A stretch of DNA of 64,000 nucleotides from NCBI RefSeq assembly GCF_000015645.1, contig NC_008816.1, positions 1,054,001 through 1,118,000 on the forward strand, written 5' to 3'. This stretch comes from Prochlorococcus marinus str. AS9601. GTDB taxonomy: Bacteria > Cyanobacteriota > Cyanobacteriia > PCC-6307 > Cyanobiaceae. Made by a program: the position numbers and the translations under genes. Shown here one piece after another: positions 987 to 14,332 of the stretch. Each line of letters starts with the position of its first letter. Within the stretch, counting starts at the first letter, position 1. The notes under the pieces are model-generated. The model saw only the letters and a program-made list of their open reading frames with translations, had not been told where the DNA came from and did not search any database.

Positions 987-996
987 TTATATCTAC

Positions 997-1218: not shown

Positions 1219-1561
1219 TAAATCAATTACTAAATAACCCTAAATATCTTCAAAGATTTATTCAAGTTCAAAATTTATATAATAAAGCAGAAAAAAGCAT
1301 TCTTAAATATAAAGATTAAATGGCCAGATTGTATATAAAACAATAAAAATCAAAATTTTTAATCACAAAATAATACTTATTAAATATTTGCCAAAGTAAA
1401 AAAATAACACTTTAAGGTTATTATCTATTGAAATAGATTGATATAAAAGGATTTTATATTTTAAATTTAATCGCACGAAATTTACCGTGACTTGTATTAT
1501 TTGATATTGATTAAAATTAGACCTCTCAACTAGTTTGGATTTAATTAAATGGTATTAGCGT
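1219..1561. other. Intergenic, AT-rich
   Basis: 343 bases separating divergent transcription units. I see no ORF with support, tRNA fragment or strong hairpin. The promoters of the PsbN-like operon (leftward) and of the small genes at 1562 (rightward) must lie here. Confidence 0.6.
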
Positions 1562-1729
1562 ATGGAAGTTTTGCTTTTTGCACTTTTTTTTATTAGTGCT
1601 CTTATTTTTTTTATTTCAGGTAAGGATGATTTTGGAAGAACCAAAAATAAATTAATTATTCAGGAAAAGGAAACGTTTAAAAAAGAGGAAAGCATCGAAC
1701 CCTCTTTAGAAGTCAAAAAAGAAGCATAA
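1562..1729 (+). CDS. Small membrane-anchored protein, 55 aa
   Basis: An N-terminal hydrophobic helix (residues 3-19) is followed by a charged tail rich in Lys and Glu. No family is recognised. It precedes the gene at 1755 on the same strand with a 25-base gap and may form an operon with it. Another ATG six bases before this start is out of frame. Confidence 0.5.
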   Translation: MEVLLFALFFISALIFFISGKDDFGRTKNKLIIQEKETFKKEESIEPSLEVKKEA

Positions 1730-1754
1730 TAAAAGCAAATTAATCAAGTTATTT

Positions 1755-1910
1755 ATGATTTATGGGTTTGCCTATTTAATGATGGTTCTTGCTATTAGTG
1801 CAGGTTGGATTATTCTTGCAGTCTTAAAAAAACCTGATTTTATTGAAAAACCACTTAATGAAGTGAAGAATAAAATAAGACCTTTTCTAAATCCAAAAGA
1901 TGATCAATGA
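1755..1910 (+). CDS. Small single-span membrane protein, 51 aa
   Basis: Residues 4-24 form a hydrophobic helix (AYLMMVLAISAGWIILAVL), followed by a basic cytosolic-type tail ending FLNPKDDQ. I do not recognise the family. It is the last gene before the first proline-tRNA scar, so it is in the same module as the hli pair and the PsbN-like gene. Confidence 0.5.
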   Translation: MIYGFAYLMMVLAISAGWIILAVLKKPDFIEKPLNEVKNKIRPFLNPKDDQ

Positions 1911-1921
1911 AATCATTTCAT

Positions 1922-2102
1922 CGACCTACTTCATAAGAGGCACTAGGTCGGATAGGGGGGAGCTACAGGGGGAGCTGAGCATATGTATTAAGTATGTAGG
2001 AGTATGTACTTTGTACAACATTGAGACTCAAACTCATTTGTACCACTAACCTAAACCCTAGTTATAGCAGGAAAATATTGATAAATCTCATTTAATAGAT
2101 CG
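1922..2102 (+). repeat. Type I flank of a tRNA-Pro scar
   Basis: A non-coding stretch resembling the one before the scar at 8910. Both contain ATAGGGGG then AGCT, and later AATCTCATTT followed closely by GATCGAGT into the tRNA fragment. At 1922-1950 there is also an inverted pair CGACCTA/TAGGTCG. Shared flanks mean that more than the tRNA fragment was duplicated, as expected for repeated site-specific integration or homologous exchange. Confidence 0.5.
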
Positions 2103-2149
2103 AGTGCTTTGGGAGCACTAGGTCGCAGGTTCGAATCCTGTCGCCCCGA
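2103..2149 (+). repeat. tRNA-Pro(TGG) 3' fragment, copy 1
   Basis: 47 bases equal to the 3' part of a proline tRNA: anticodon stem AGTGC/GCACT around loop TTTGGGA (anticodon TGG), the T arm with TTCGAAT, the acceptor strand CGCCCCG and discriminator A. The 5' half is absent, so it is not a functional tRNA. Copy 2 at 3892 is identical. Such 3' fragments are classic integration scars (att sites). Dispersed tRNA-Pro fragments are, as I recall, a published hallmark of one Prochlorococcus genomic island. Confidence 0.9.
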
Positions 2150-2172
2150 CTCTTAAAAACCAAGTCATACTA

Positions 2173-2196
2173 GCGAGTCTCCCAACTCGCTTTTTT
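2173..2196 (+). terminator. Rho-independent terminator after tRNA-Pro scar 1
   Basis: Hairpin GCGAGT/ACTCGC with a 6-base loop followed by TTTTTT. The equivalent position after scars 3 and 5 also holds a hairpin with a T tract, so this is probably the terminator of the ancestral intact tRNA gene, carried along with the fragment. Confidence 0.8.
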
Positions 2197-2208
2197 ATTG
2201 CAAAAATA

Positions 2209-2240
2209 TGACCACTCGAAATGTGGTCAAATAGTGGTCA
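2209..2240. repeat. TGACCAC/GTGGTCA box cluster 1
   Basis: TGACCAC at 2209, GTGGTCA at 2223 and GTGGTCA at 2234: one inverted and one direct repeat, the direct pair 11 bases apart. Similar clusters sit next to the scars at 3784 (before scar 2), 6282 (after scar 3) and 10099 (after scar 5). The position next to an att-like core is what recombinase arm sites look like; this is inference. Confidence 0.6.
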
Positions 2241-2350
2241 AATTTGATTAACAGTCGATCTAACCTCGACCCTACTTTTTAGATAAAGTACCTATATTTT
2301 GTTATTCATTTAAAAGTTATTATTTTGAGCAAATAACAGGATTTAAAAAA

Positions 2351-2473
2351 ATGATGAAACTTGCAATCATTTTCTTACCAATTGCCTTTGCACTTATATG
2401 GGCTCTGTTTATTGGGTTAAGAATAAATAGAGTAGAAAATAGAGATGGAAAAAGAAAATTAATTAATTATTAA
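2351..2473 (+). CDS. Small single-span membrane protein, weakly PsbY-like, 40 aa
   Basis: Residues 3-23 form one helix (LAIIFLPIAFALIWALFIGL) with a short basic tail. The pattern of a Pro in a hydrophobic run followed by a Trp recalls PsbY, a low-mass subunit of photosystem II, but the match is weak. It ends at a shared terminator-like repeat (2480-2521) facing the DUF3721 gene. Confidence 0.5.
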   Translation: MMKLAIIFLPIAFALIWALFIGLRINRVENRDGKRKLINY

Positions 2474-2479
2474 TAGCTT

Positions 2480-2521
2480 GATAGTCGATCTAAAATTGGA
2501 GAGATAAAACCCTCTTTTTTT
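2480..2521. repeat. AGTCGATCTAA-terminator module, copy A
   Basis: Begins AGTCGATCTAAAATTGG, then a weak hairpin (GAGAG/CCCTC) and a run of Ts. The same arrangement occurs at 2817-2861 and, inverted, at 9548-9593; a degenerate start lies at 2248. It separates convergent genes and probably terminates both. The conserved leading sequence is more than a terminator needs. Confidence 0.5.
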
Positions 2522-2732
2522 AATGATTATGTTCATGCTTACTGCATGGCATCCATTTATCTCCCATTTGATGAGCGCCTTCACAGTCAAATTTATAAGC
2601 TTCTTTTTCAGCCTGTTCTTTTGTATCAAATAACATTGGCATTTTCATTTCTTTTTCGGCGGGTTTATTTGAACAACTTAACGAAAGAATTGACATGAAA
2701 AAAAAAGGAAGAAAAGAAATAAAGTGTTTCAA
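2520..2732 (-). CDS. DUF3721-family lipoprotein, 70 aa
   Basis: A signal peptide with lipobox LSLSC places this in a membrane-anchored, extracytoplasmic position. The mature part has the marine-cyanobacterial DUF3721 pattern: a stretch of the type EQAEKEAYKFDCEGAHQMG followed by DKWMPC, then a His-rich end (HEHNH). Two Cys and several His suggest metal binding, but no function is known. A second family member is at 19557 inside a putative metal operon. Confidence 0.75.
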   Translation of the reverse strand: MKHFISFLPFFFMSILSLSCSNKPAEKEMKMPMLFDTKEQAEKEAYKFDCEGAHQMGDKWMPCSKHEHNH

Positions 2733-2816
2733 AATTTATTTATAAAATCAAGGCAGCATAGTATTAAATATCTTTCGAAATATTTAAAAAATTGAATTCT
2801 TTACATATATTTATTG

Positions 2817-2861
2817 ATTGACAGTCGATCTAAAATAAGGGGTAATAAGCTCCTTTTTTAA
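2817..2861. repeat. AGTCGATCTAA-terminator module, copy B
   Basis: Reads ACAGTCGATCTAAAAT, then AAGGGG/CTCCTT pairing and a T tract. It is nearly identical in plan and sequence to the inverted copy at 9548-9593. It overlaps the stop codon of the DsrE gene and could end that transcript or one coming from the left. Confidence 0.55.
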
Positions 2862-3235
2862 TAGCAAAGTACGCTATCCGCTTTAATTGATTCTTCAACT
2901 AGAACATCTGGCATAACAAACTCTGCAGTGTATCCATCTAGAAGCTTCTCATCGTAACCCCTAGATTTAGCAGACATTCCTGAGACATATATGGTAATTT
3001 TTGAATTCTTTAAATTTTGAAGATGTTCGTATAAATCTCCAGTACCTTGACCAACTATTTCGCCAGCTTTTTTGCAATTTAATATTTGTACTCCGTCTCC
3101 TGCAAGAAAAAGTGTTACTTTATGATCGTTTTTTTCTGCAGTAAGGGCAACCAATAAACCTAAAGTTATTTTATTTTTGGATTCTAAACCGCTGTAAATA
3201 TGTACTAAAACTGTATTGTCGGTAATAATAGACAT
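2858..3235 (-). CDS. DsrE/DsrF-like sulfur-relay family protein
   Basis: 125 residues with the DsrE-like alternating strand/helix pattern: a first strand VLVHIYSG, a helix around KNKITLGLLVAL, then KVTLFLAGDGV and later ITIYVSGMSA, the usual order for this family. DsrE-like proteins act in sulfur transfer or as predicted peroxiredoxin-like proteins. Cys54 and the penultimate Cys124 are the only thiols. The soluble protein stands alone with no other sulfur-relay gene nearby, so its partner is unknown. Confidence 0.75.
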   Translation of the reverse strand: MSIITDNTVLVHIYSGLESKNKITLGLLVALTAEKNDHKVTLFLAGDGVQILNCKKAGEIVGQGTGDLYEHLQNLKNSKITIYVSGMSAKSRGYDEKLLDGYTAEFVMPDVLVEESIKADSVLCY

Positions 3236-3387
3236 TTAATCCTCCCCAATTTTTTTATATCCTAAATAAAATCAATATTCATTAGCTGTTTTTTATGAAA
3301 CGCTTACTACCTGCACTGCTGATAGTTAAAAAAATGACAGCCAACTTAGAGATAATCGAATAACATTTATAAAAATCAAAATCATTA

Positions 3388-3753
3388 ATGAAAAAAACTA
3401 TTTTAACGGGTTTAATTGCTTGCATTGCTGGGCTTGCAATTGGTTATAAAGTCCCAAAAGACAAGAATGCTGGTTACGTAATGATTTCTGGCAGGATTAC
3501 AAATCCAGAACAAGCAGGTAAATACTTTGAAGCAGTAAATGATGTTGTTGTTAAAGGTTGCGGAGCAAAGACACTATCAGTTGACTTCGAGACTGATGTT
3601 AGAGAGGGTTATGATGGTCCGTTTTCTGTGCTTTCGAAATTTCCAAGTAAACAAGCAGTAATTGATTGTTATGAAGGACCATATCAAGAATTAATTCCTT
3701 TAAGAAAAGGAGCTATAGATATGAATTTTAGAATAGTTGAAAGAAATAGATAA
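3388..3753 (+). CDS. DUF1330 domain protein with N-terminal anchor
   Basis: 121 residues. Residues 3-20 are a hydrophobic signal or anchor (ILTGLIACIAGLAIGYKV). The rest matches the dimeric alpha/beta-barrel type DUF1330 fold: GYVMISGRITNPEQAGKY, a central strand after a CGAK loop, and DCYEGPYQELIPLRKGAID near the end. The molecular function of DUF1330 is unknown; an extracytoplasmic place is implied by the N-terminus. It is the last gene before scar 2. Confidence 0.75.
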   Translation: MKKTILTGLIACIAGLAIGYKVPKDKNAGYVMISGRITNPEQAGKYFEAVNDVVVKGCGAKTLSVDFETDVREGYDGPFSVLSKFPSKQAVIDCYEGPYQELIPLRKGAIDMNFRIVERNR

Positions 3754-3891
3754 AAAAGAGCTAGGGCTACTTATCCTAAAAAAGTGGTCAAAAAGTGGTC
3801 AAATGTTGCTTAAATAGTCAGGACAAACAACGCGACACCACGCAAGAATCCAGATATAGCTCGAAACGCTAGTGCTTGCGATAGGTGGGGA
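3754..3891 (+). repeat. Type II flank of a tRNA-Pro scar, with GTGGTCA boxes
   Basis: Contains AAAAAAGAGCTAGGGCT, then GTGGTCA at 3784 and 3795 (11 bases apart) and a GC-richer stretch up to scar 2. Decayed copies of the same flank are recognisable at 12035-12145 (from GTGGTCAAATGTT onward) and at 12990-13040 (the AAAAAAGAG..GGCT and GTGGTCAAA parts). The recurrence marks at least three past events at this site type. Confidence 0.55.
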
Positions 3892-3938
3892 AGTGCTTTG
3901 GGAGCACTAGGTCGCAGGTTCGAATCCTGTCGCCCCGA
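3892..3938 (+). repeat. tRNA-Pro(TGG) 3' fragment, copy 2
   Basis: Identical over 47 bases to copy 1 at 2103, including the TTTGGGA anticodon loop, TTCGAAT T loop and CGCCCCGA end. It forms the left boundary of the psbA module. Perfect identity to copy 1 suggests recent duplication or ongoing gene conversion with the intact tRNA gene outside the window. Confidence 0.9.
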
Positions 3939-3968
3939 TTGACTTCTCAAGATTCTCAATTATCCTCT

Positions 3969-4013
3969 GGGCGATCTCTGGGCGATCATTTGCTATACCT
4001 TGCATAACTTTGC
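3969..4013 (+). repeat. Left copy of the GGGCGATC direct repeat around psbA
   Basis: Two GGGCGATC boxes at 3969 and 3980, exactly 11 bases apart, followed by a similar tail (ATTTGCT..TGCATAACTTTGC). A homologous copy in the same orientation lies at 6026-6070, on the other side of psbA. An inverted ATCGCCC follows at 4020. The pair brackets the psbA-hli module inside the tRNA scars. Confidence 0.7.
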
Positions 4014-4165
4014 ATGGTGCATCGCCCGCTATAACTAAAAATAAGAATTAAAAATTGAGGTCTTTTCCCAACCCTCATCTAGTAGTTGTTTTTATTCTTT
4101 TCTTGCAGCCTCAAAAGTTTCTACCCTGCTGCCTTTCATAGCAGTCAGTCCATAAACCATTAAAA

Positions 4166-4196
4166 AAGTCAGCCTGTATCCCCTACTGGCTGACTT
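4166..4196 (-). terminator. Terminator of the leftward hli unit
   Basis: Perfect stem AAGTCAGCC/GGCTGACTT with a 13-base loop. On the minus strand it is followed by a T run, so it ends the transcript of the hli gene and small gene at 4222-4464. Confidence 0.8.
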
Positions 4197-4221
4197 TCAT
4201 GACGATCTAAGTTTTAAAAAA

Positions 4222-4329
4222 CTATACGAATGTAGTTGTTGTTGTGATGCTTAAAACAACTGCAACAAAAAATATGTAAGGAACCAACTTAAGGGGTACA
4301 TATCCTTGTCTTTTAGATATAAAATCCAT
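4222..4329 (-). CDS. Small single-span membrane protein downstream of hli, 35 aa
   Basis: Starts on the base after the stop codon of the hli gene, so the two are translationally coupled. Residues 12-34 form one helix ending in a Thr run (VVLSITTTTTFV). The family is not recognised. Tight coupling to an Hli protein and the size suggest a thylakoid partner; that is inference. Confidence 0.6.
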   Translation of the reverse strand: MDFISKRQGYVPLKLVPYIFFVAVVLSITTTTTFV

Positions 4330-4464
4330 TTATACAAATCCTGGAATAATTTGTCCTGTTGTTAGATATGCGCCAATAAGTGCAATAAAGCCAATCATCG
4401 CAAATCTACCGTTAAGCTTCTCAGCTACGATTTTTTCCTTCTCAACTGTTTTTGTTTCGTTCAT
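4330..4464 (-). CDS. hli: High-light-inducible protein (Hli), 44 aa
   Basis: A complete Hli signature AEKLNGRFAMIG and the ending TTGQIIPGFV. It is transcribed divergently from psbA. The combination hli plus psbA is also typical of cyanophage photosynthesis cassettes, and here both lie between two tRNA scars. The expected role is binding free chlorophyll and quenching at photosystem II. Confidence 0.92.
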   Translation of the reverse strand: MNETKTVEKEKIVAEKLNGRFAMIGFIALIGAYLTTGQIIPGFV

Positions 4465-4726
4465 TTGTTTGGTTGGTTGTTTAGCTAAGACGCTTACTAA
4501 TGCAATCTTGAAATGAATCTAGTAAAAGAAAATTACAAGTGTGAGTATAATTACTTACCCTCATACCCTCTATAAGTTGAACTTATTAAAAGTATTTCGA
4601 TTTTAATTGAGCAATTATTCAATAAAAATAAAATTTAAATAATGCATTTAATTAATAAGCATAATTTATCAATGGCATAAGATTTACTCCGCTCATTTAT
4701 TGAATTTTTGGACTATGCTTACTGGG
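4465..4726. promoter_or_regulatory. hli-psbA divergent promoter region
   Basis: Shared upstream region of the leftward hli and rightward psbA. TATGCT at 4714-4719 is a possible psbA -10 element; I see no convincing -35 and no HLR1 repeat. Nothing else is recognised in this stretch. Confidence 0.4.
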
Positions 4727-4771
4727 ACGGAATATTTAATCCGTTCTTACTTAAACGTCTCGTATAGAGGC
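4727..4771 (+). promoter_or_regulatory. psbA 5' UTR hairpins
   Basis: Two hairpins precede the start codon: ACGGA/TCCGT with an 8-base loop (4727-4744) and GTCTC/GAGGC with a 5-base loop (4757-4771). Conserved psbA leader structures (the PhotoRC RNA motifs) are known in marine picocyanobacteria and their phages; this may be one. No Shine-Dalgarno is visible before the ATG, so translation control by the leader is plausible. Confidence 0.5.
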
Positions 4772-4788
4772 AATAACATAACGAACTC

Positions 4789-5871
4789 ATGACAACTATT
4801 CAGCAGCAGCGTTCTTCGCTGTTAAAAGGTTGGCCACAGTTTTGTGAGTGGGTAACATCAACTAACAACAGAATTTATGTTGGTTGGTTCGGCGTCTTAA
4901 TGATTCCATGCCTTCTTACAGCAGCGGCTTGCTTCATCGTTGCATTCATCGCAGCACCACCAGTAGACATCGACGGAATTAGAGAGCCAGTTGCTGGTTC
5001 ATTCCTATATGGAAACAACATCATCTCAGGTGCAGTTGTTCCTTCATCTAACGCTATTGGTCTACACTTCTACCCAATTTGGGAAGCAGCTACTGTAGAT
5101 GAGTGGTTATACAACGGTGGTCCTTACCAGCTTGTAATTTTCCACTTCCTAATTGGTATCTCAGCATACATGGGAAGACAGTGGGAGCTTTCATACCGTT
5201 TAGGTATGCGTCCTTGGATCTGTGTTGCATACTCTGCACCAGTTTCAGCAGCTTTCGCAGTATTTCTTGTATACCCATTCGGTCAAGGTTCATTCTCTGA
5301 CGGAATGCCTTTAGGTATCTCTGGAACATTCAACTTCATGTTTGTTTTCCAGGCAGAGCACAACATTCTTATGCACCCATTCCACATGGCTGGTGTTGCT
5401 GGTATGTTCGGAGGATCTTTATTCTCAGCTATGCACGGTTCACTTGTTACTTCATCTCTAATCAGAGAAACAACTGAGACAGAGTCTCAGAACTATGGTT
5501 ACAAGTTCGGACAAGAAGAAGAAACATATAACATCGTTGCAGCTCATGGCTACTTCGGTCGTTTGATCTTCCAATATGCTTCATTCAACAACAGCAGAAG
5601 TCTTCACTTCTTCCTAGCTGTATTCCCAGTTGTTTGTGTATGGTTAACTTCAATGGGTATCTGCACAATGGCATTCAACCTTAACGGTTTCAACTTCAAC
5701 CAGTCAGTTGTTGATGCAAACGGTAAGATTGTTCCTACATGGGGTGACGTTCTTAACAGAGCAAACCTAGGTATGGAAGTAATGCACGAGCGTAACGCTC
5801 ACAACTTCCCACTTGATCTAGCAGCAGCTGAGTCTACAACAGTAGCTCTTTCAGCTCCAGCTATCGGTTAA
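4789..5871 (+). CDS. psbA: Photosystem II reaction centre protein D1
   Basis: Complete 360-residue D1, the PSII subunit that binds P680, pheophytin and QB and ligates the Mn cluster. Numbering runs one ahead of the usual scheme: TyrZ is Tyr162 in [12 protein letters not shown], with the Asp170 equivalent at 171, the P680 ligand at His191, and the C-terminal processing site near Ala345. Residue 131 (usual 130) is Gln, in MGRQWELS, the D1:1 (low-light) type at that position. The gene is intact, rich in favoured codons, and lies between tRNA-Pro scars at 3892 and 6174 and between paired GGGCGATC repeats. Whether this is the only psbA of the genome cannot be told here. Confidence 0.98.
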
Positions 5872-5892
5872 GCTTAAAGTTCTTAAATTTAC

Positions 5893-5921
5893 AAGCCCCC
5901 TTTTTGGGGGCTTTTTTTTTG
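5893..5921 (+). terminator. psbA terminator
   Basis: AAGCCCCC/GGGGGCTT stem with a 5-base loop followed by a run of nine or more Ts, about 20 bases after the psbA stop. Confidence 0.92.
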
Positions 5922-6025
5922 TTTAATTTTCAATTGGGTATGCATATTTATTACTGAGAACCAAATCGTGAGAATGATTAGGGCATAAAGAATTATTAGT
6001 GTCTTTATGACACTAGATCTTAAGC

Positions 6026-6070
6026 GGGCGATCCCTGGGCGATCAAATGCTTAACTGTGCAATACTTTGC
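6026..6070 (+). repeat. Right copy of the GGGCGATC direct repeat around psbA
   Basis: GGGCGATC at 6026 and 6037, again 11 bases apart, with a tail (AATGCTTAACTGTGCAAT..CTTTGC) similar to the copy at 3969. Same orientation. It lies 150 bases before scar 3. Confidence 0.7.
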
Positions 6071-6173
6071 TCTATTTAAAGCATTTCTTGAGACTCATTA
6101 TGGCTGCCTATATTTCAAACTAAAGTTATGGCATGACTTTGTTTTCTTGGGTGCTGTCGCAATTTGCTGATCG

Positions 6174-6220
6174 AGTGCTTTGGAAACACTAGGTCACAGG
6201 TTCGAATCATTTCGCACCGA
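6174..6220 (+). repeat. tRNA-Pro 3' fragment, copy 3 (decayed)
   Basis: Aligns over the same 47 positions as copies 1 and 2 but with substitutions in the anticodon arm (GGAAACACT), the T stem (CATTT) and the acceptor strand (CGCACCG). The preceding GATCGAGTGCTTTGG is shared with copy 1. It is the right boundary of the psbA module. Confidence 0.8.
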
Positions 6221-6281
6221 CTCTAACAATCCAAGTTCTAGAAAAGTTCCTCAGCCTTTCTTTTTTTTAATGCCCATATTA

Positions 6282-6303
6282 TGACCACAATGATTGCGGT
6301 CAA
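6282..6303. repeat. TGACCAC/GCGGTCA box cluster 3
   Basis: TGACCAC at 6282 and a degenerate GCGGTCA at 6297, after a T-rich weak hairpin. Layout is the same as after scars 1 and 5. Confidence 0.5.
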
Positions 6304-6309
6304 AAAGGC

Positions 6310-6723
6310 TTAATTGAAAGGTGAAGTGTTATTAGTAGGAGCTATTAATAAGATTTCAAAAACAATTCCAGTCAAAGCAATAGGCAATACCCAAATACCA
6401 ATAAATCTATGATCAAAAAATCTTAAATGATCTTCACCCCTGAAAACACTTCTTAAAGAAGTAAATAGGGTTTCTGGTTGCTTATAAGATGGCCCATTTT
6501 TATTTGGAGAATATGGTTTTATAAATGCAGAGGAAGCAGAAAACTTTGCAATTTTTCTTAAAAAATAAATAGGTAAAACCCATATAGCAACGAATCTTCC
6601 ACCAAGCCATTGTCTCGCATTAGGCAGAGCATACTCTTTGATAGATTTATTCTCTGGCATTCCAGATTCCAGATTCTTATAAATTTTTTCTAATGTAGAT
6701 TCCTTACTTGATTTATTGATCAT
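6310..6723 (-). CDS. Membrane protein with duplicated RFxxIWVLPI segment, 137 aa
   Basis: Two predicted spans each begin with the same motif: RFVAIWVLPIYF near residues 43-54 and RFIGIWVLPIAL near 106-117. The protein therefore looks like an internal duplication of a one-span unit separated by a basic, polar linker (SPNKNGPSYKQPETLF). No family is recognised. It is downstream of the tandem structured elements (6765-7106) on the same strand. By location in a cluster of photosystem-like small proteins I infer a thylakoid role. Confidence 0.6.
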   Translation of the reverse strand: MINKSSKESTLEKIYKNLESGMPENKSIKEYALPNARQWLGGRFVAIWVLPIYFLRKIAKFSASSAFIKPYSPNKNGPSYKQPETLFTSLRSVFRGEDHLRFFDHRFIGIWVLPIALTGIVFEILLIAPTNNTSPFN

Positions 6724-6764
6724 TTGATTTTCAGAAAAATTTACTTTAAAAGGTGTAATAAATA

Positions 6765-6871
6765 AAAATATTCCTAACTACTAAAATAACTAAAACGTAG
6801 TTAGGAATATTTTCGTTGGCTAGGTTCATAAAGACGGAATCTATACCGTTGCAGATTCGCCAAATATCTAC
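6765..6871 (-). ncRNA. Structured element, copy A
   Basis: On the minus strand it begins GTAGATATTTGGCGAATCT, passes through GAACCT and ends in a perfect 17-bp hairpin (arms 6765-6781 and 6797-6813) followed by a T-rich tail. The first part can also fold (TTGGC/GCCAA stacked on GAATCT/AGATTC, with ACGG/CCGT able to form a crossing pairing). The terminator-like hairpin lies 42 bases before the ATG of the 137-aa gene. Copy B has the same order. It looks like a cis-acting leader or small RNA; the family is unknown to me. Confidence 0.55.
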
Positions 6872-7002
6872 ATATTCTTTATAAATAAAAAACTCTTTTT
6901 TAAAAAGTAAATAATATACATAAGAAGGTTTAATATTTAATAATTTAGAGTTTTTATTAAGAGTTAAATTTAATATTCAAGACTATTAAAAAAATATTTA
7001 AA

Positions 7003-7106
7003 CCTCATTTTCTAAGATTGCGAAAAAGAAAATGAGGTCAAAGGGAGGTTCTCATTACGAACCGCTTTATCAAAGCTAGCGGCTAGTAGATTGCCCTAAT
7101 ATCTAC
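7003..7106 (-). ncRNA. Structured element, copy B
   Basis: On the minus strand it begins GTAGATATTAGGGCAATCT (16 of 19 bases as in copy A), has AGAACCT in the middle and ends in a perfect 11-bp hairpin (arms 7003-7013 and 7027-7037) with a T-rich tail. Inner hairpins are GTAGAT/ATCTAC, CCGCT/AGCGG and GGTTC/GAACC. The last two share bases 7062-7063, so they are mutually exclusive, as in a switch. Confidence 0.55.
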
Positions 7107-7189
7107 TTATATATTTATATAATGAGTTTTAAAATACAGGAAGATTAATTTTATACAAATATGTGTTTAATATTTTATGTGATTATTGC

Positions 7190-7288
7190 TTAGGAAAAGG
7201 TAATTAATGCACTGACTATAGTTATTGAAAGATAAAAAAATGCATAAAGAGATACTGCAAAAAATAAATACTGTTCTATTGGAATCAT
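7190..7288 (-). CDS. Single-span membrane microprotein, 32 aa
   Basis: Almost entirely one helix after the start MIPIEQYLFF. Length and composition are like low-mass photosystem or cytochrome b6f subunits, but I cannot match one. It is co-oriented with, and 34 bases after, the 62-aa gene at 7323. Confidence 0.45.
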   Translation of the reverse strand: MIPIEQYLFFAVSLYAFFYLSITIVSALITFS

Positions 7289-7322
7289 GACAAGGTATTA
7301 ATTTGGGGTAAGAAAAATTTGA

Positions 7323-7511
7323 TTAATTTTTTGTTAAAAAGATATTCTCTAAAATATAACTTTGTTCTATTAAATCATTTTTATGAGAAATATTTTTTGG
7401 CAAATTATTATTCGGAGAATTAAAAGCACCCCATTTTTTTAGCCAAAATAAGGTATAAAAAAATGCGATTAAAAATGGTGCTCCAACAATTAAAAATCTA
7501 ATATCCATCAA
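7323..7511 (-). CDS. Small membrane protein sharing the N-terminal module of the PsbF-like protein, 62 aa
   Basis: Residues 2-30 (MDIRFLIVGAPFLIAF.. ending FWLKKWGAF) align with residues 1-29 of the next protein ([16 protein letters not shown].. ending FWLGRWDVF). MD-R-LV---P also recalls PsbY. The tail after residue 32 is polar and unrelated. Start is one of two adjacent ATGs. It begins 9 bases after the stop of the PsbF-like gene. Confidence 0.6.
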   Translation of the reverse strand: MMDIRFLIVGAPFLIAFFYTLFWLKKWGAFNSPNNNLPKNISHKNDLIEQSYILENIFLTKN

Positions 7512-7520
7512 AATTTCCTA

Positions 7521-7817
7521 TTAATAAGATTTAAACTGCATTGCCAATATTGCTCCAAGGAAGAAAACAGTAGGAATGCCTAGGGCATTAACTGCTGCGG
7601 TTCTTACGGTAAATACTGGATAACCTTCTGCTGGTCTGCCAGTCGCAGGAACTAGTGCAGTATCATCCCATACTTGATAGTTTTTGAAAGGTGCTACTCC
7701 CTTTTTTGGTAGTCCAAGTGGCGTCAATCTAAATACATCCCATCTACCTAACCAAAATACTGTAAATATCCATGAAAATACTATTGGTGTAATAACTAGT
7801 ACGACTCTAAAATCCAT
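7521..7817 (-). CDS. Two-span protein with cytochrome b559 beta (PsbF)-like C-terminus lacking the haem histidine
   Basis: Residues 66-95 read [27 protein letters not shown] and align with PsbF (YPxFTVRWLAVHTLxxPxVFFxGAIAAMQF) at about 20 of 33 positions. The haem-ligand His of PsbF is Asn77 here and the Trp after FTVR is Thr73, so it should not bind haem as PsbF does. Residues 1-30 add a first span ([13 protein letters not shown].., ending WLGRWDVF) faintly like PsbY; the linker 31-65 is polar. Normal PsbF is 39-45 residues and encoded with psbE, psbL and psbJ. I infer a PSII-associated paralogue, possibly an assembly or photoprotection factor. Confidence 0.7.
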
Positions 7818-8045
7818 TTCTTTAAAAATAATAAATTTGGTAATTATTGTGCCCTTTTTAAATTAATAATTGATTAAATCATTAACTTATATTTATACAA
7901 AATCACTTAATAACATTATTTTTAATCATTAATCACAATTAATTATGATTAATTGATTTTATTGAAGTATATTTTCTAAATTTAAATATTTAAATATATT
8001 AGTTTGATGTAGATTTAAATTAAATTAAATATCAGGTATAAAAAT

Positions 8046-8411
8046 ATGGATACTTTTAGATTTCTACTTTTTGGGTTAGCAGGAGTAAGCGTGGTTTTTT
8101 GGGTAGCAGTAATAGCGTTATGGCATACTTATATGTTTCCAAAATTCTTTAATGAAGATAAAGGTTTAAATTCTGTTATCAATCAAGAAATAAATGTTTC
8201 AACAGATCCAATTTTAGGCAGTTTGGTAAACAGCAACAATTTCAAAAGTAGAGACAAATATTCAATGAAAAATTTAGTTGTGGCAGATTTCTCATCAACT
8301 AATAATTTCACACTAAATAAACTCTACACAACAGTAATGATTGGAGTTACTTTTGCTAGTTTTATTTTTCTTACTTATGGATTGAGCAGTTCAATAACAA
8401 CAATAAGTTAA
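8046..8411 (+). CDS. Two-span membrane protein, 121 aa
   Basis: Span 1 (residues 5-28) begins MDTFRFLLFGLAG and runs into VVFWV..ALWHT, loosely like the N-terminal modules of the proteins at 7323 and 7521. A polar Asn/Ser-rich linker follows, then span 2 (about 94-116) preceded by NNFTLNKLY, faintly similar to the NNLPVELNRTSLY entry of PsbL. The PsbL likeness is weak. It is divergent from the PsbF-like gene and overlaps none, and the next microprotein follows directly. Confidence 0.55.
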   Translation: MDTFRFLLFGLAGVSVVFWVAVIALWHTYMFPKFFNEDKGLNSVINQEINVSTDPILGSLVNSNNFKSRDKYSMKNLVVADFSSTNNFTLNKLYTTVMIGVTFASFIFLTYGLSSSITTIS

Positions 8412-8495
8412 ATGGAATCTATATACGTAATTGTTTTCATTACTTGCTTCGTTTATTTAATTTTTGACTCAGTCAAAAATATAAATATTAAATAG
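8412..8495 (+). CDS. 27-aa single-span peptide, possibly PsbT-like
   Basis: Starts on the base after the stop codon of the 121-aa gene, implying translational coupling. MESIYVIVFITC.. is one helix with a short KNINIK tail. PsbT is a 30-32-residue PSII subunit beginning MES(F/A)xYxLIL, so size and first residues fit. The evidence is slim, but the coupled position supports a real gene. Confidence 0.45.
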   Translation: MESIYVIVFITCFVYLIFDSVKNINIK

Positions 8496-8499
8496 ATTG

Positions 8500-8625
8500 C
8501 TAATGTTTTTTGCCAGCTAACAAAAATTTTCTTCTTATATAAAAGAATACTAATGTAGTTATTATCATTACAGGTGGATGAAATGATATTGAATTTAGGT
8601 ATTCGTAGTAATCAAAGGATTCCAA
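8500..8625 (-). CDS. Possible TTG-started microprotein, 41 aa
   Basis: From a TTG codon the frame gives MESFDYYEYLNSISFHPP then one helix (VMIITTLVFFYI) and a basic end. There is no ATG upstream in frame; an internal ATG would leave only 22 residues. It is convergent with the 27-aa gene. Real coding status is uncertain. Confidence 0.3.
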   Translation of the reverse strand: MESFDYYEYLNSISFHPPVMIITTLVFFYIRRKFLLAGKKH

Positions 8626-8768
8626 AATTTTTTCTCGTAATTTCCTAAAACTATATCCCAGCTCTCAAATTTTTATTGATTAAATAAATCAATCTCTAGT
8701 ATCAAATGCTAGTTAAATTTTTCTTAACTAATATTTTGCGGACAAGCCTTATCAAAATAGGATAATTG

Positions 8769-8909
8769 GTCATAGGGGGTAGCTGGAGTCATTAAAAACC
8801 TTATATTATCTACGAAGATATTTTTATATTTAGTCCCAAAATTATTCAACTATCTGTAGACAATTAAAATCATGAATTGGAATTAAAGGAAATCTCATTT
8901 GACCGATCG
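8769..8909 (+). repeat. Type I flank of tRNA-Pro scar 4
   Basis: Contains CATAGGGGGTAGCT and, just before the scar, AATCTCATTT and GATCGAGT, in the same order as before scar 1 (1922-2102). No gene is seen between 8626 and 9049. Confidence 0.45.
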
Positions 8910-8956
8910 AGTCCTTTGGGAGCACTAGGTCAAAGGTTAGAATCCTGTTGCCCCGA
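8910..8956 (+). repeat. tRNA-Pro 3' fragment, copy 4 (decayed)
   Basis: The TTTGGGA loop, GCACT and CCTGT stay intact, but the anticodon stem has AGTCC, the T loop TTAGAAT and the acceptor strand TGCCCCG. It has decayed moderately. Confidence 0.82.
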
Positions 8957-9049
8957 TTGAGTTTTCACCGAATTGCAAAAGTATCTTAAGGCATAAATCT
9001 TGCATAATTTCTTTCAACTGGTAATTTTAGTGAGCTTTAATAAATTCAG

Positions 9050-9274
9050 ATGCAAGATCAAAAAATTGAAAAGATAGCAACTGTTGCAGTAAACATAACT
9101 AAGTTGCTGGTAATAATTTATCTAGGCTTTGTAGAAGTATTTAAAATTGGCAAATTACTCATAGAGAATTTAGATGTTGAATTTGATGTTTCTCGAAAAT
9201 GGGCTTCACAAAATTATTCAATTCTAAAAAAACGACTAGCGGAAAGGAAAGTAGCAGGTGTTATAGAAAATTAG
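9050..9274 (+). CDS. Hypothetical single-span protein, 74 aa
   Basis: A short helix in residues 10-32 (TVAVNITKLLVIIYLGFVEV) is followed by a basic amphipathic region (VSRKWASQNY.., KKRLAERK). No family is recognised. It is the first gene after scar 4. Confidence 0.5.
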   Translation: MQDQKIEKIATVAVNITKLLVIIYLGFVEVFKIGKLLIENLDVEFDVSRKWASQNYSILKKRLAERKVAGVIEN

Positions 9275-9401
9275 TAAACGTTATATTTCCGAAACAAGTT
9301 TGATCGAATATACGGCATCCTTACAATTATTTTTTTATCCCATTCCTTTTCTAGAGGAGATTCTATCTCAGCACCTAATTTTTCTTAGTCGGTACAATTC
9401 A

Positions 9402-9548
9402 TTAATAAATGAGATTTGTGTTCATTGACTTTACAAACTCATAATCATTTACAAACTCTTTGCACATTTCTTCAAGGAATAATGTCGTTAGATCATTTTT
9501 AAATTCTTCAAATGTACGGCTATAAGTTGAGATGATCAGAGTGTTCAT
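9402..9548 (-). CDS. Hypothetical acidic protein, 48 aa
   Basis: No membrane span; MNTLIISTYSRTFEEF then an acidic helical stretch (NDLTTLFLEEMCKEF). It looks like the N-terminal part of a larger alpha/beta fold, so it may be a truncated remnant. Its ATG lies at the end of the inverted terminator module at 9548-9593, downstream of the DUF3303 gene. Confidence 0.4.
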   Translation of the reverse strand: MNTLIISTYSRTFEEFKNDLTTLFLEEMCKEFVNDYEFVKSMNTNLIY

Positions 9549-9593
9549 TAAAAAAAGGAGCTAATTGCCCCTTATTTTAAATCAACTTTCAAT
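9548..9593 (-). repeat. AGTCGATCTAA-terminator module, copy C (inverted)
   Basis: On the minus strand: ATTGAAAGTTGATTTAAAAT, then AAGGGG/CTCCTT pairing and a T tract, closely similar over about 45 bases to 2817-2861. It follows the DUF3303 stop codon and would terminate that transcript. Confidence 0.55.
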
Positions 9594-9599
9594 ATCGAT

Positions 9600-9872
9600 T
9601 TATGAGTAGACTTTAGCAACTATTGGACCAGCTTCTTCATCAGTAAACACAGGTGTGGTTTCCCAATTGAGAAATTCACCCCATTCAGCGGCATGTTGAT
9701 ATATTGCTTTTGGATCATCAGTCTTTAAAACTATCCATCCCTCTAAAGAACCGGGTGCATGATATCTTCCAATCATCTCAACTCCAGGATAATCTCCTCC
9801 ACCACCAAGAAATTTTTCTGCACCTTTTTGATGAAATCCGGCCTTAAATGACCAATGCTGAACATAAAGCAT
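9600..9872 (-). CDS. DUF3303-family protein, 90 aa
   Basis: Small soluble ferredoxin-like-fold protein: MLYVQHWSFKAG at the start, a central strand EGWIVLKTDDPKAIYQHAAEW, and a TPVFTDEEAG end. The order (strand, GA-rich helix, EGWxxxxxxD, W, TPVxxDEE) is typical of DUF3303. Function unknown. A paralogue with the same plan is at 16214. Confidence 0.7.
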   Translation of the reverse strand: MLYVQHWSFKAGFHQKGAEKFLGGGGDYPGVEMIGRYHAPGSLEGWIVLKTDDPKAIYQHAAEWGEFLNWETTPVFTDEEAGPIVAKVYS

Positions 9873-9994
9873 TTTATTTTTTAAGTTTTATTGGCTTTCT
9901 ATTACTAGCAAAAAAAACAATTATAGAAAATAAATAGTTTTAATTGCCTGTTATTGTAGATCGACTTTCAAAAAAAATATCAAATGTCCCGCCT

Positions 9995-10041
9995 AGTTAA
10001 GGTAAAGCACTAAGTCGCAGTTTCGAATCCTGTCGCTCCGA
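9995..10041 (+). repeat. tRNA-Pro 3' fragment, copy 5 (5' part decayed)
   Basis: From 10007 on it follows the scar pattern (GCACT, AAGTC, GCAGT, TTCGAAT, CCTGT, CGCTCCG, A). The first 12 bases of the anticodon arm no longer match. Confidence 0.75.
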
Positions 10042-10061
10042 CTCTTAAAGACCAAGGCATA

Positions 10062-10130
10062 GAAAGGTTTCCCAGCCTTTCTGTTTTATTGCAAAATATG
10101 ACCACTCAAATTGAGGTCAAATAGTGGTTA
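10062..10130. repeat. Terminator hairpin and box cluster after scar 5
   Basis: GAAAGG/CCTTTC hairpin at 10062-10081, then TGACCAC (10099), GAGGTCA (10113) and GTGGTTA (10124). The spacing and intervening sequence (TTTTATTGCAAAATATGACC) match the region after scar 1, so the whole downstream flank was copied. Confidence 0.6.
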
Positions 10131-10206
10131 AGAATTTATTTTTTATTCATTTAAATTTTTTATAATTAACGTAATTAATCCTTTAATTTAGAATTAAATA
10201 ATCACA

Positions 10207-11961
10207 TTACTCAAGCAGTTTATTTCTGATATCCTCTTCTCTTTTTGCATTTGCAACAATTGTTTTTTGTTGGTTATTTAGTTCCTTTATAGGTACTTTA
10301 TAAATTTTTAAATTATTATCATCATCCAACCTTACTGCGCAATTAAATTGAAATGAGGGGTCTAGTAATGGGAAATCACTTCTTTGATGTGCGCCCCTAC
10401 TCTCATTTCTTTGTAATGCCGAAACAATTGACGCTTTTGCACTCAACAAAGAAGATTGCAAATCAAAAATCAATGCTAGATCTTCGCAATTATATTGATC
10501 GATTCTTACATCAACGTCACTGAGTTTTCTTTTTATACTTTCAATTTTTGATAACCCCTCTAAAAGTAATGTCTCATTTTTAATAACCCCACAATATTTC
10601 CACATTATTAATCGCAATTCATTTTGAAGAGGCCCCACTAATTCATTACCATTTTTAATAAACTTATTAATGTTTTCATGTGCAATGGCGATGGCTTTAT
10701 TTGATCTCATTTGATGATCTTTATTTTTTGAATATTTTGAAGCTGCAATGCCCGCACGTCTTCCAAAAATAATAATTTCTGCCAAAGAATTACCACCCAA
10801 TCGATTAGCTCCGTGAAGTCCTCCTGCAACTTCACCAGCGGCAAAAAGACCTTCTACAGAAGTAGATAAATTCTCTGGATTAACTAAAATTCCACCCATA
10901 GAATAGTGAGCAGTTGGTGCAACTTCCATTGGCGACTTTGAAATATCAAGCATTTGGGTTTCAAGAAATTGTCTATATATGCTTGGCAGCTTTTCAACAA
11001 TAAACTCTTTACTTTTATGGCTTATATCAAGAAAAACACCCCCATTTTTTGTTCCTCTGCCTTCAATTATTTCTGTATAGTTAGCAATTGCTACTCTATC
11101 TCTTGTTGATAATTCCATCCTTTTCGGATCATATTCTTTCATAAATCTTTCACCTTTATTATTTAGTAACTTTCCACCCTCACCTCTTACAGCTTCAGTA
11201 ACCAAAGTTCCTTCAATTTCCTCGGGTAAGACCATTCCAGAAGGGTGGAATTGTACCATTTCCATATCTATTAATTCACATCCTCCTTTTAGACTTAAAT
11301 AATAACCATCACCTGTATTTTCATTTTTTCTAGATGAACTTTTTTTCCATAATCTTGTATGCCCTCCCGTACATAAAATAACTGCATCTGCTAAGTGCAC
11401 AGTCCTCTCTGAAGTAGACAAGTTAAACGACATTGCTCCAAAGCAGGTATTTTCCCTAATCAATAATTCAGTAACATATTGATTGTCATAAATAGGAATC
11501 TTTAAATCATCTGATTTTTTTAAGAGAGTTTTTAAAATTGATAATCCAGTAAAATCACCTGAATAACAAGTTCTACGATATTTATGTGCACCAAAAAATC
11601 TTTGATCGAGTTCACCATTTTTTAATTTTGCAAAGTTAGCCCCCCATTTATCTATTTCTTTTACTAAAAATGGGGATTCTTTAGCCATTATTTCAACTTT
11701 TAAAGGATCACCAATACCATACCCCTCTAAATAAGTATCAACAAAATGCTGTTCCCATGTGTCTTCTTTATCTAGGTTGCCTAAAGCAGCATTAATACCT
11801 CCTGCTGCTAAAACGGTATGAGCATCTGTCTTCGGTCTTTTCCCTAGGATACATACATTGAGACCAGATTTTTTAATTTCAATAGCAGATCTTAGACCAG
11901 CTCCCCCACACCCAATCACGAGAACATTTGATATATGAGTGAGATGTTCTTTAACAGGCAA
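10207..11961 (-). CDS. Succinate dehydrogenase/fumarate reductase flavoprotein-like subunit
   Basis: 584 residues with a dinucleotide motif GCGGAG (17-22), a candidate flavin-linking His48 in AHTVLAAGG, HPSGM (239-243), RGEGG (259-263), STRDRV (285-290) with the candidate catalytic Arg287, HYSMGG (352-357) and GLHGANRLGGNS (381-392). This is the SdhA/FrdA/NadB flavoprotein fold. Length and the C-terminal RGAHQRSDFP fit SdhA/FrdA better than L-aspartate oxidase. No iron-sulfur (sdhB) or membrane subunit is in the window, so its electron partner is unknown. It lies alone between scar 5 and the relic at 12035, so it is probably island cargo. Confidence 0.88.
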   Translation of the reverse strand: MPVKEHLTHISNVLVIGCGGAGLRSAIEIKKSGLNVCILGKRPKTDAHTVLAAGGINAALGNLDKEDTWEQHFVDTYLEGYGIGDPLKVEIMAKESPFLVKEIDKWGANFAKLKNGELDQRFFGAHKYRRTCYSGDFTGLSILKTLLKKSDDLKIPIYDNQYVTELLIRENTCFGAMSFNLSTSERTVHLADAVILCTGGHTRLWKKSSSRKNENTGDGYYLSLKGGCELIDMEMVQFHPSGMVLPEEIEGTLVTEAVRGEGGKLLNNKGERFMKEYDPKRMELSTRDRVAIANYTEIIEGRGTKNGGVFLDISHKSKEFIVEKLPSIYRQFLETQMLDISKSPMEVAPTAHYSMGGILVNPENLSTSVEGLFAAGEVAGGLHGANRLGGNSLAEIIIFGRRAGIAASKYSKNKDHQMRSNKAIAIAHENINKFIKNGNELVGPLQNELRLIMWKYCGVIKNETLLLEGLSKIESIKRKLSDVDVRIDQYNCEDLALIFDLQSSLLSAKASIVSALQRNESRGAHQRSDFPLLDPSFQFNCAVRLDDDNNLKIYKVPIKELNNQQKTIVANAKREEDIRNKLLE

Positions 11962-12034
11962 TTTTAAGTAAATTTAATAATTTAATTTTAACTCTATGCC
12001 TTAGAAAGATATAAATAATTTCATTATTTTAAAT

Positions 12035-12160
12035 GTGGTCAAATGTTTCTAAAATTGTCGGGACATATCACGCAAAATCAAGTAAGAAATTAGCTATAGC
12101 TTAAAAACCTAGTAATGCTAATGGGGTGTACGGCACTTTGAAAGTGCTTGGTGGATTTGT
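12035..12160 (+). repeat. Decayed type II flank and tRNA relic
   Basis: GTGGTCAAATGTT, then a stretch colinear with 3795-3891 (GGACA..CACGCAA.., TAGCT.., CTAGT..), ends in GGCAC-TTTGAAA-GTGCT where the anticodon arm of the scar would be. The arm still pairs, but its loop would read TGA. No T arm survives. I take it as an old tRNA-Pro scar; a tRNA-Ser origin of the arm cannot be excluded. Confidence 0.4.
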
Positions 12161-12262
12161 TTCTATCCAATGGGCTGAAAAAAAATTGGTTGATGCAATC
12201 CCTTTTTAACCTATTTAGCTTTTTTATTTTTTAAGATATGTCTAAATTGATTTTCTAATAAG

Positions 12263-12517
12263 ATGAATAAATTTAAAGACAACTTCTCAAGCGAAAGCTT
12301 TTATCCTGATAGTAATTATTATCTTGATCAAGACAATTCTCCCAAAGTTGACCCAATTTCAAAAGATCAAAAATCTAATATGGGGAATGATTTTGAATGG
12401 CCAAATACCTATTGGTATATTGCCGAAAGAACAAATGGAAGGCTAGCAATGATAGGTTTCATGGCTGTCATTATTAACTACACCTTATTTGGATGGATAG
12501 CTTATCCTATCCTTTAA
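12263..12517 (+). CDS. hli: High-light-inducible protein with long N-terminus, 84 aa
   Basis: The C-terminal part carries AERTNGRLAMIGFMA and NYTLFGWI, like the Hli at 33208. About 50 polar, Asp/Ser/Asn-rich residues precede it, longer than in the other Hli proteins here. The following gene starts on the next base after its stop. Confidence 0.88.
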   Translation: MNKFKDNFSSESFYPDSNYYLDQDNSPKVDPISKDQKSNMGNDFEWPNTYWYIAERTNGRLAMIGFMAVIINYTLFGWIAYPIL

Positions 12518-12745
12518 ATGAGTAATTCTAATTTTGACAACAATGGTTTAGATAAGTCTGGAACACATTGGCTTCAGTATGCTGCATTTGTTGTAACTAC
12601 ATTTGCTATTTATTTTGGTTGGGCATTTTTCAATGATGCTAATTTCCACCATTTCGCTGTAAAAATATTCAAATTCTTGAATTGTAATGGATATAACCCA
12701 TTAAGTTATTGCCTGATGCGTTGGGATGTAGACTTTTATCCTTAA
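12518..12745 (+). CDS. Membrane protein coupled to hli, 75 aa
   Basis: Starts directly after the hli stop. One span at about residues 20-40 (YAAFVVTTFAIYFGWAFF) is followed by FNDANFHHFA. The last 25 residues (CNGYNPLSYCLMRWDVDFYP) look out of character, and a frameshift near codon 48 is possible. Function unknown; a partner for the Hli protein is a guess from coupling. Confidence 0.5.
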   Translation: MSNSNFDNNGLDKSGTHWLQYAAFVVTTFAIYFGWAFFNDANFHHFAVKIFKFLNCNGYNPLSYCLMRWDVDFYP

Positions 12746-12898
12746 AGAAAAACGACTAGGTCTTTTTGATTGGTTAATTCAAATGATTCAAGACTAAAGA
12801 GTTTTATCGAAAATGCAACTAATAAAGATCAGTTTTTTTAAATATATATTTATTGATTCTGGGAAGGTTACTTCTATATAGGGAAAGAGCCACCTCTC

Positions 12899-12991
12899 AT
12901 GCCAACCAGAGAAGAATTAAAGAAAGATACAGCTAGAGAATATTGGGAAAAAATAGCTGCTCAGGGTTGGAGAAGAGATAAGGAAGATTAG
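12899..12991 (+). CDS. 30-aa peptide like the end of DUF1651 proteins
   Basis: MPTREELKKDTAREYWEKI then AAQGWRRDKED. The AREYWEKIxxQGWRR stretch matches the C-terminal helix and GW motif of the DUF1651-like proteins at 14055, 16820 and 30792. It may be a real microprotein or the remnant of a longer gene. Confidence 0.4.
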   Translation: MPTREELKKDTAREYWEKIAAQGWRRDKED

Positions 12992-13040
12992 ATAAAAAAG
13001 AGATCTCAGGCTGCTAATTCTTAATAAGTGGTCAAACAAT
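12990..13040 (+). repeat. Type II flank fragment
   Basis: AGATAAAAAAGAG, GGCTGCTAATTC and GTGGTCAAA (13028) follow the order of 3750-3803 before scar 2. No tRNA fragment follows. It is the last trace of the scar system before the RluF gene. Confidence 0.4.
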
Positions 13041-13181
13041 ACTCAATTAGGAATTAATAGGGGTGCAAGTAGAAAGCGTTTCATACTATTTAAATTATTT
13101 CTTCCAAAGTCGAAACGTATAAATCTTGGATTTTTGCCAGCCAATTAACTTTAACTCCCAATTACTTTTATTGGTTTTTGA

Positions 13182-13904
13182 TTACTCATTTGTTTTAGAG
13201 GAGTTTTCAAGTAATTCATTTAATTCTAAGAGTTCTTCTTTTCTAAGTTCTCTATATTCTCCCGTTGGCACATCTAACTTAATATTCATAATTCTTATAC
13301 GCTTTAATGACTGTACTCTATATCCTAAAGCCTCACACATTCTTCTAATCTGGCGATTAAGTCCCTGTGTGAGAATTATTTTAAAATTTCTTGGCCCCAA
13401 TTGTTTTACGAAACAATTTTTAGTTATTGTGCCTAATATTTCAACTCCATTACTCATGCTTTGAATAAAATCGTTATTAATAGGACGATTAACTTTTACA
13501 ATGTATTCTTTTTCATGATTATTTCTTGCTCTAAGAATTTTATTTACGATATCTCCATCATTGGTTAAAAAAATCAATCCCTCACTGAGCTTATCCAATC
13601 TTCCGATGGGAAAAATTCTTTTAGGATATTTAATGAAATCTATTACATTATCCGGTTCTACTTTTCTATCTGTTGTGCAAACAATTCCTACAGGTTTATT
13701 AAAGGCTAAGTATATGTTTTTTTGTCTCTTTGATTTTTCTATTCTTTGACCTTTAACTTCAACTTGGTCACTATCTTCTACTTTAGTTCCAATTTCTGGA
13801 ATTTTGCCATTAATGGTTACCTTTCCATCTAGGATTAATCTATCTGCTTCTCTTCTGGAACAATAACCGACTTCACTTAAATATTTATTTATTCTGGTAG
13901 CCAT
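13182..13904 (-). CDS. rluF: 23S rRNA pseudouridine synthase RluF
   Basis: 240 residues. An N-terminal S4 RNA-binding domain (1-60) is followed by the RsuA/RluB/RluE/RluF catalytic domain with Asp104 in GRLDKLSEGLIFLTNDGD. NHEKEYIVKVNRPIN, GLNRQIRRMCEALGY and RIRIMNIKLDVPTGEYR follow the E. coli RluF sequence closely, so the specificity is probably U2604 of 23S rRNA. RluF is not a typical cyanobacterial core gene and its place at the edge of the island suggests acquisition by transfer. Confidence 0.88.
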   Translation of the reverse strand: MATRINKYLSEVGYCSRREADRLILDGKVTINGKIPEIGTKVEDSDQVEVKGQRIEKSKRQKNIYLAFNKPVGIVCTTDRKVEPDNVIDFIKYPKRIFPIGRLDKLSEGLIFLTNDGDIVNKILRARNNHEKEYIVKVNRPINNDFIQSMSNGVEILGTITKNCFVKQLGPRNFKIILTQGLNRQIRRMCEALGYRVQSLKRIRIMNIKLDVPTGEYRELRKEELLELNELLENSSKTNE

Positions 13905-14300: not shown

Positions 14301-14332
14301 AAGTCTAACCGTGGAATTAGTAAGCGTTCCAT

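Follow-up and report, generated by a model that had tools for sequence, protein, structure and literature searches.

The window analyzed here, a 64,000-nucleotide stretch of the Prochlorococcus marinus str. AS9601 genome, carries on its minus strand a 98-residue ORF in which a span resembling PsbF, the beta chain of cytochrome b559, is preceded by an additional N-terminal span. The features of this ORF and of its conserved neighbors are as follows:

6310..6723, minus strand: X1, 137 aa, with two hydrophobic 'RF.AIWVLP'-like segments, a conserved neighbor
7323..7511, minus strand: ORF62, a short PsbY-like protein (NF002717 match, E 2.9e-7, residues 2–48)
7521..7817, minus strand: ORF of the putative PsbY-PsbF fusion, 98 aa, ATG start, 98 codons, NCBIfam "cytochrome b559 subunit beta, long form"
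7524..7625, minus strand: PsbF-like span, residues 65–98 (PF00283 and TIGR01333 matches)
7587..7589, minus strand: codon AAT of Asn77, at the position of the haem-ligand His
7599..7601, minus strand: codon ACC of Thr73, at the position of the conserved Trp after FTVR
7626..7715, minus strand: linker, residues 35–64 (low pLDDT, no helix in the AlphaFold2 model)
7716..7817, minus strand: PsbY-like span, residues 1–34 (profile comparisons; model helix 3–25)
8046..8411, plus strand: X2, 121 aa, a conserved divergent neighbor

The sequence-only reading of this DNA had matched the C-terminal part of the ORF to cytochrome b559 beta at about 20 of 33 positions, and comparison of residues 66–98 with the PsbF of the same genome bore this out with 22 identities over 33 positions. 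The two substitutions that it had pointed out were confirmed at the codons listed above; the axial haem-ligand His of PsbF is absent from the protein, with Asn77 in its place. PF00283, the profile by which it had proposed to check the relationship and whose silence it would have taken as a refutation, matched residues 66–88 just above the cut-off (E 7e-8, 32.2 bits vs. 30). TIGR01333 gave 54.4 bits (E 6.8e-15), below the equivalog cut-off of 61.15, which 30 fusions of the genus g56 pass (61.3–66.5 bits), and the long-form model NF002720 covered the entire protein (residues 1–98 of 98, 212.7 bits, cut-off 127). The protein departs from the single-span PsbF of ~40–48 residues encoded by psbEFLJ in its length of 98 aa and its two predicted helices. 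These helices (residues 3–25 and 68–96) were placed by an AlphaFold2 model of low confidence (mean pLDDT 60, pTM 0.33), in agreement with the extra fused span that had been claimed. The gene is located ~765 kb away from psbE in the AS9601 genome (1,669,886 bases), and since this genome also carries an ordinary psbE and psbF, adjacent to each other, the fusion is an extra copy in this strain.

The resemblance of the extra span to PsbY escaped the sequence-only reading. A profile of fusion N-termini compared by hhalign with twelve canonical PsbY sequences gave a probability of 78% (E 2.1e-6), and with four stand-alone PsbY-like ORFs a probability of 98.6% (E 9.5e-15), both E values being those of single comparisons. 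A PsbY profile run on 44 sequences scored 33 of them, but not the other 11, higher than any of 880 shuffles (at most 7.8 bits), with scores reaching 20 bits and the N-terminus of the window fusion at 13.2. The PsbY chain 9t5u_R from the PDB matched the span at E 0.28. The Pfam PsbY family (PF06298) had no match in the window fusion at E up to 10, and its matches to the N-terminal parts of the G278, G300, and G324 fusions (E 0.009–0.03) were below cut-off. Stand-alone short ORFs matching the N-terminal part only are present in some other genera. PsbY runs from the lumen to the cytoplasm and PsbF from the cytoplasm to the lumen, so a cytoplasmic linker can join the two spans, and from these orientations the linker is predicted to be cytoplasmic.

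Gene neighborhood

ORF62, which resembles the N-terminal half of the fusion only, lies directly downstream of it in 79 of the 80 named public loci, the exception being L348 (strain HNLC2), where ORF62, X1, and X2 are all missing from the 3 kb flanks. X1 is found in 77 of these loci, as is X2, which has the opposite orientation in all 77; in four of the six X1 or X2 misses, the contig ends near the gene (L303, L341, L312, and L342). Across 266 genomes of the genus of the window, the fusion and X1 occur together in 120, the fusion alone in 4, X1 alone in 11 (four of them fragments), and neither in 131; in G012, all that is left is an X1 remnant containing a stop. Among six loci from other genera, X1 is near the fusion in four (G320, G268, G275, and G303), in varying orientation, and X2 homologs diverge from it in two (G320 and G268; L128 and L132), where a flavodoxin gene follows X2 near the fusion and the genomes lack psbF; neither X1 nor X2 was seen in the flanks of the G517 and G317 fusions. 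No Pfam family, NCBIfam family, or credible PDB match was found for X1 or X2, a single NCBIfam hit at E 0.4 being taken as chance, and the structure model of X1 was poor (mean pLDDT 50).

A tie between the fusion and the nearby psbA (4789–5871) was considered and rejected, as psbA is found in none of the 80 named loci, whose flanks extend as far as 3 kb in either direction. This psbA copy and the one at 226908 of the same genome encode an identical D1 of 360 residues. The window also encodes a 73-aa PsbN-like protein (997–1218; PF02468, E 7e-6) and a DUF3721 protein (2520–2732), and homologs of both lie ~3 kb or less from the fusion in G275 (L129). Five stretches of 46–99 bp (2101–2199, 3891–3939, 6172–6236, 8910–8957, and 10006–10061) recur at 85–100% identity in a stretch of G012; by eye they resemble tRNA 3' ends, and they are possibly island attachment remnants. 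The tRNA and Rfam scans of positions 1–20000 of the window found nothing.

Conservation, selection, and distribution of the fusion

To survey the residues of interest, the best 80 of 243 relatives, found by a search that allowed any residue at both positions, were taken as named public records; they are probably mostly from high-light Prochlorococcus. All 80 have Asn at the position of Asn77 and all 80 have Thr at that of Thr73, so the loss of the ligand is not a one-strain mutation, an outcome that the sequence-only reading would have taken as a refutation. Another 96 more distant fusion loci, some of them one gene counted twice, yielded 58 distinct proteins, all with Asn. The script behind these 58 selected for Asn; an earlier search of the same loci, open to His, Asn, or Gln, returned no fused copy with His or Gln, and one fusion locus missed by both residue searches also has Asn. 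Among 198 loci, repeats included, the Asn codon is AAT in 162 and AAC in 36. Only one of the 58 distinct proteins, the 91-aa fusion of G278 (L084/L140), retains the Trp, and Asn is already there; it is possibly an early form of the family. A psbE was looked for in G278 and not found. Arg72 is invariant across 17 fusions.

Purifying selection on the PsbF part is strong. In a sample of 45 of the 85 distinct high-light-type sequences, dN/dS was 0.007 for this part (residues 66–95), 0.087 for the N-terminal span, 0.105 for the linker, and 0.060 for the gene as a whole. That the gene is a psbF duplicate in decay is scarcely credible given these values and the neighbors kept alongside the gene, for all that the fusion is patchy in the genus and the C-terminus of the G006 copy (L156) is apparently frame-shifted.

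The NF002720 cut-off was exceeded in 124 of the 266 genus genomes, which places the fusion beyond chance. The other 142, several of them complete, had no match above the cut-off, so the fusion is dispensable in this genus. NF002717, a second long-form model, was above cut-off in 46 of 400 family genomes. Among the matches listed for 386 genomes of the phylum, all seven over the cut-off came from the family of the window itself, and those from other families covered mainly the PsbF part; a wider spread over the phylum was rejected on this ground. The matches in G857 and G702 span most of the profile but contain stop codons. A phage origin was likewise rejected, as the phage collection gave no match and five candidate stretches of viral contigs encode no relative. 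G042 carries two copies of the fusion (C1:1104904 and 1464008), each with an X1 match ~1 kb off.

Genomes lacking psbF and the mirror state in PsbE

A TIGR01333 search found canonical psbF in none of the 41 g56 genomes. Thirty of them have exactly one match to this profile, which is the fusion, and the remaining 11 are incomplete drafts, among which G509 alone shows part of a fusion; the lack of a beta chain in the other ten was put down to assembly gaps. Three of the drafts are 90–93% complete, and in these psbE is present while the adjacent psbF is missing. The operon order in g56 is psbE-psbL-psbJ. When the six complete g56 genomes were searched with E values of up to 10 allowed, TIGR01333 recovered the fusion, PsbE, and low-scoring noise only, and a PsbY profile gave nothing above noise in these six or in the complete g4 genome G268. 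Thus the fusion appears, from gene content, to be the sole beta chain left in g56, and with no other beta chain found there, it would have to supply this chain.

We compared 57 psbE loci taken from the genomes already at hand, which are not a random draw. The psbE stop and psbL are separated by 11–43 nt in 15 loci of g56, g4, g27, and g38, vs. 169–194 nt in the 42 psbF-bearing loci. Three states were found and no other:

State 1, 29 of 57 loci: PsbE with Arg, Tyr, His, and Thr; PsbF with Trp and His
State 2, 15 of 57 loci (eleven g56, two g4, one g27, one g38): operon without psbF; PsbE with Thr26 changed to Ala
State 3, 13 of 57 loci: PsbE with Lys or Asp, Phe, Gln, and Thr; PsbF with Phe and His

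Residue 26 of PsbE (T. elongatus numbering) is therefore Ala in all 15 loci lacking psbF and Thr in all 42 others (loci noted for this residue: L116–L122 and L201–L209), while the Arg, Tyr, and His of PsbE are retained in all 15. The fusion was identified in ten of these 15 genomes (eight of g56, G268, and, as a part only, G509). The other five, all incomplete (G477, G504, G351, G291, and G302), yielded no beta chain of either kind, which leaves replacement of psbF by the fusion only a possibility in g27 and g38. Two of these, G302 (L209) and G291 (L202), have the order psbE-psbL-psbJ and PsbE Ala26, with no fusion in their incomplete assemblies. Conversely, the fusion-bearing genomes of g11, g39, g17, g34, and g53 that were searched also have canonical psbF.

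The opposite arrangement came to light in G316 and was read in 13 genomes that belong to nine genera other than g56: the haem His of PsbE is replaced by Gln and the His of PsbF is kept. In the same 13, the Arg of PsbE is replaced by Lys or Asp and its Tyr by Phe, and the Trp of PsbF by Phe (L085, L163, L166–L168, L170, L171, L173, L174, L176, L177, L179, and L180). A DNA pattern for PsbE-Gln occurred in 14 of 400 family genomes and 10 of 59 genera, with 0 for the reversed-pattern control. An NF002717 family search found no fusion in any of the 13 genomes, and 11 of them, searched again, gave the same outcome; a stand-alone PsbY-like ORF is present in 8 of these 11. The psbF-less and the PsbE-Gln states each keep exactly one His with an amide, Asn or Gln, opposite. 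The bis-His cytochrome b559 thus appears to have been abandoned in two ways.

In a species tree of Ycf48 with 43 rows, the rows of g56 (three), g4 (two), and g27 (one) group together with support (99/97). G302 is placed outside this group, so the psbF-less label needs two changes on this tree. The 11 PsbE-Gln rows need two changes as well. Each of the two states may nevertheless have a single origin.

The proposed two-span beta subunit and its alternatives

As no canonical psbF was found in any of the 41 g56 genomes, the fusion is most likely the beta subunit itself there. Gene content and conservation suggest that it is most likely a true subunit of photosystem II (PSII) that replaces PsbF and PsbY, with the haem either lost or held by one His. 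The complete form of the reading that we prefer, to which we give a probability of roughly 0.55, is a two-span PsbY-PsbF beta subunit in which the bis-His haem is absent and an amide-imidazole link takes its place. The PsbF-like helix would pair with PsbE at the usual place, and the PsbY-like helix would adjoin it, tied through the cytoplasmic linker. Less surely, the bis-His haem would be absent, and Asn77 would form a hydrogen bond with the retained His of PsbE, so that this bond, in place of the haem, would connect the two helices; amide-imidazole hydrogen bonds are able to keep membrane helices joined. For g56 and the related g4, the fusion form would be the standing form of PSII, and in strains that also carry psbE-psbF, such as AS9601, it would be an alternative beta chain in some centers or conditions.

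Laboratory precedent points both ways. Passages of PMC9214863, and also of PMC4709441, report that PSII with apo-b559 assembles in the H23A and H23M alpha mutants of T. elongatus, at the wild-type level according to PMC9214863. In Synechocystis, according to a passage of PMC4709441, changing either haem ligand to eight residues, among which Gln was included and Asn was not, abolished photoautotrophic growth, with the exception of one Lys mutant. PMC9214863 also relates, in the section consulted, that Arabidopsis without PsbY has only low-potential b559, which would link both halves of the fusion to one site.

The strongest competitor is a tentative one, in which the haem stays on the His of PsbE and its opposite face is taken by Asn77 or water. 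Such a haem would be open and of low potential, and may react with oxygen, superoxide, or peroxide, or oxidize plastoquinol. The counterpart of Arg72 contacts a haem propionate (PMC4709441, in a passage), and the invariance of Arg72 in the 17 fusions and the retention of the PsbE Arg, Tyr, and His in all 15 psbF-less loci fit a haem that stays, as does the single His facing an amide in both non-canonical states. However, the Thr that stands for the Trp, on the same helix face as the Asn and four residues ahead of it, and the T26A change of PsbE suggest a changed pocket, and the residues retained may have a role in protein contacts only.

It is unlikely that the fusion is an assembly or repair factor that binds PsbE transiently in the stead of PsbF and leaves before PSII is mature. 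The co-occurrence of psbF in AS9601 and in the searched fusion genomes of g11, g39, g17, g34, and g53 would suit such a factor, as would the fall of a "PsbF-like" transcript of MIT9312 under one plastic leachate in a passage of PMC6517427, that gene being presumably this fusion; the 41 g56 genomes, in which no other PsbF was found, argue against it. The sequence-only reading had proposed a mimic competing for PsbE or retaining an assembly intermediate, which is unsupported as stated for the same reason, and an assembly or repair role is possible in strains that also keep psbF.

More improbable still is a divergent, unrecognized beta chain bearing the His in g56, which would make the fusion an accessory everywhere. 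Searches can miss very short, diverged genes, and two of the g56 drafts at 90–93% completeness yielded neither beta chain, but TIGR01333 taken to E 10 in the six complete g56 genomes produced no such gene and the T26A change of PsbE tracks the loss of psbF.

The two-span beta subunit can be set beside several known systems. It shares with canonical PsbF (PF00283, TIGR01333) one span, the YPxFTVR start, and the AMQF end, and differs from it by Asn for His, Thr for Trp, the added PsbY-like span, and its location away from psbE. The models NF002720 and NF002717, compared by name alone, mention neither the lost ligand, nor a PsbY origin, nor the loss of psbF. In a solved PSII structure, that of Acaryochloris marina according to a passage of PMC12661325, the 99-aa chain 7ymi_F, named "Photosystem II protein Y", matches both PsbF and, weakly (10.3 bits), the PsbY-like half; unlike the fusion, it has PsbF first and keeps the Trp and the His, and the two probably arose separately. 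PsbF2 of the far-red PSII of Synechococcus 7335 is likewise encoded by a second psbF outside the psbE operon and was found in PSII, but it keeps the His, and the text on it mentions no fusion (PMC8689208, in the passages concerned). The T. elongatus PsbE mutants H23A and H23M also assemble PSII with haemless b559 (PMC9214863, in part), but they are laboratory changes of PsbE, whereas the fusion is a natural change of the beta chain.

The sequence-only reading had stated that no description of such a fusion was known. This does not hold for databases, where the NCBIfam long form and, in the opposite order, 7ymi_F exist; it stands for the papers searched. The search covered open PMC papers, with subscription ones outside its scope, and none of those searched describes the missing ligand, the PsbY-first fusion, or the absence of psbF.

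A passage of PMC8689208 calls the psbEFLJ operon "conserved in all oxygenic phototrophs", and whether the b559 haem has a physiological redox role is not agreed upon, as stated in an excerpt of PMC12661325. Judging from the residues at the ligand positions, it seems reasonably probable that ocean picocyanobacteria dropped the bis-His haem of b559 at least twice, in mirror-image fashion, leaving a PSII that is haemless or holds a one-His haem. Natural clades without the beta or the alpha ligand would allow the role of this haem to be addressed without mutagenesis, and they suggest that a haem long thought universal in PSII can be lost or rebuilt in nature. If true, the loss of the haem would mean that PSII contains less iron where the water is poor in it, and the flavodoxin gene near the fusion in G320 and G268 may be mentioned alongside this iron saving.
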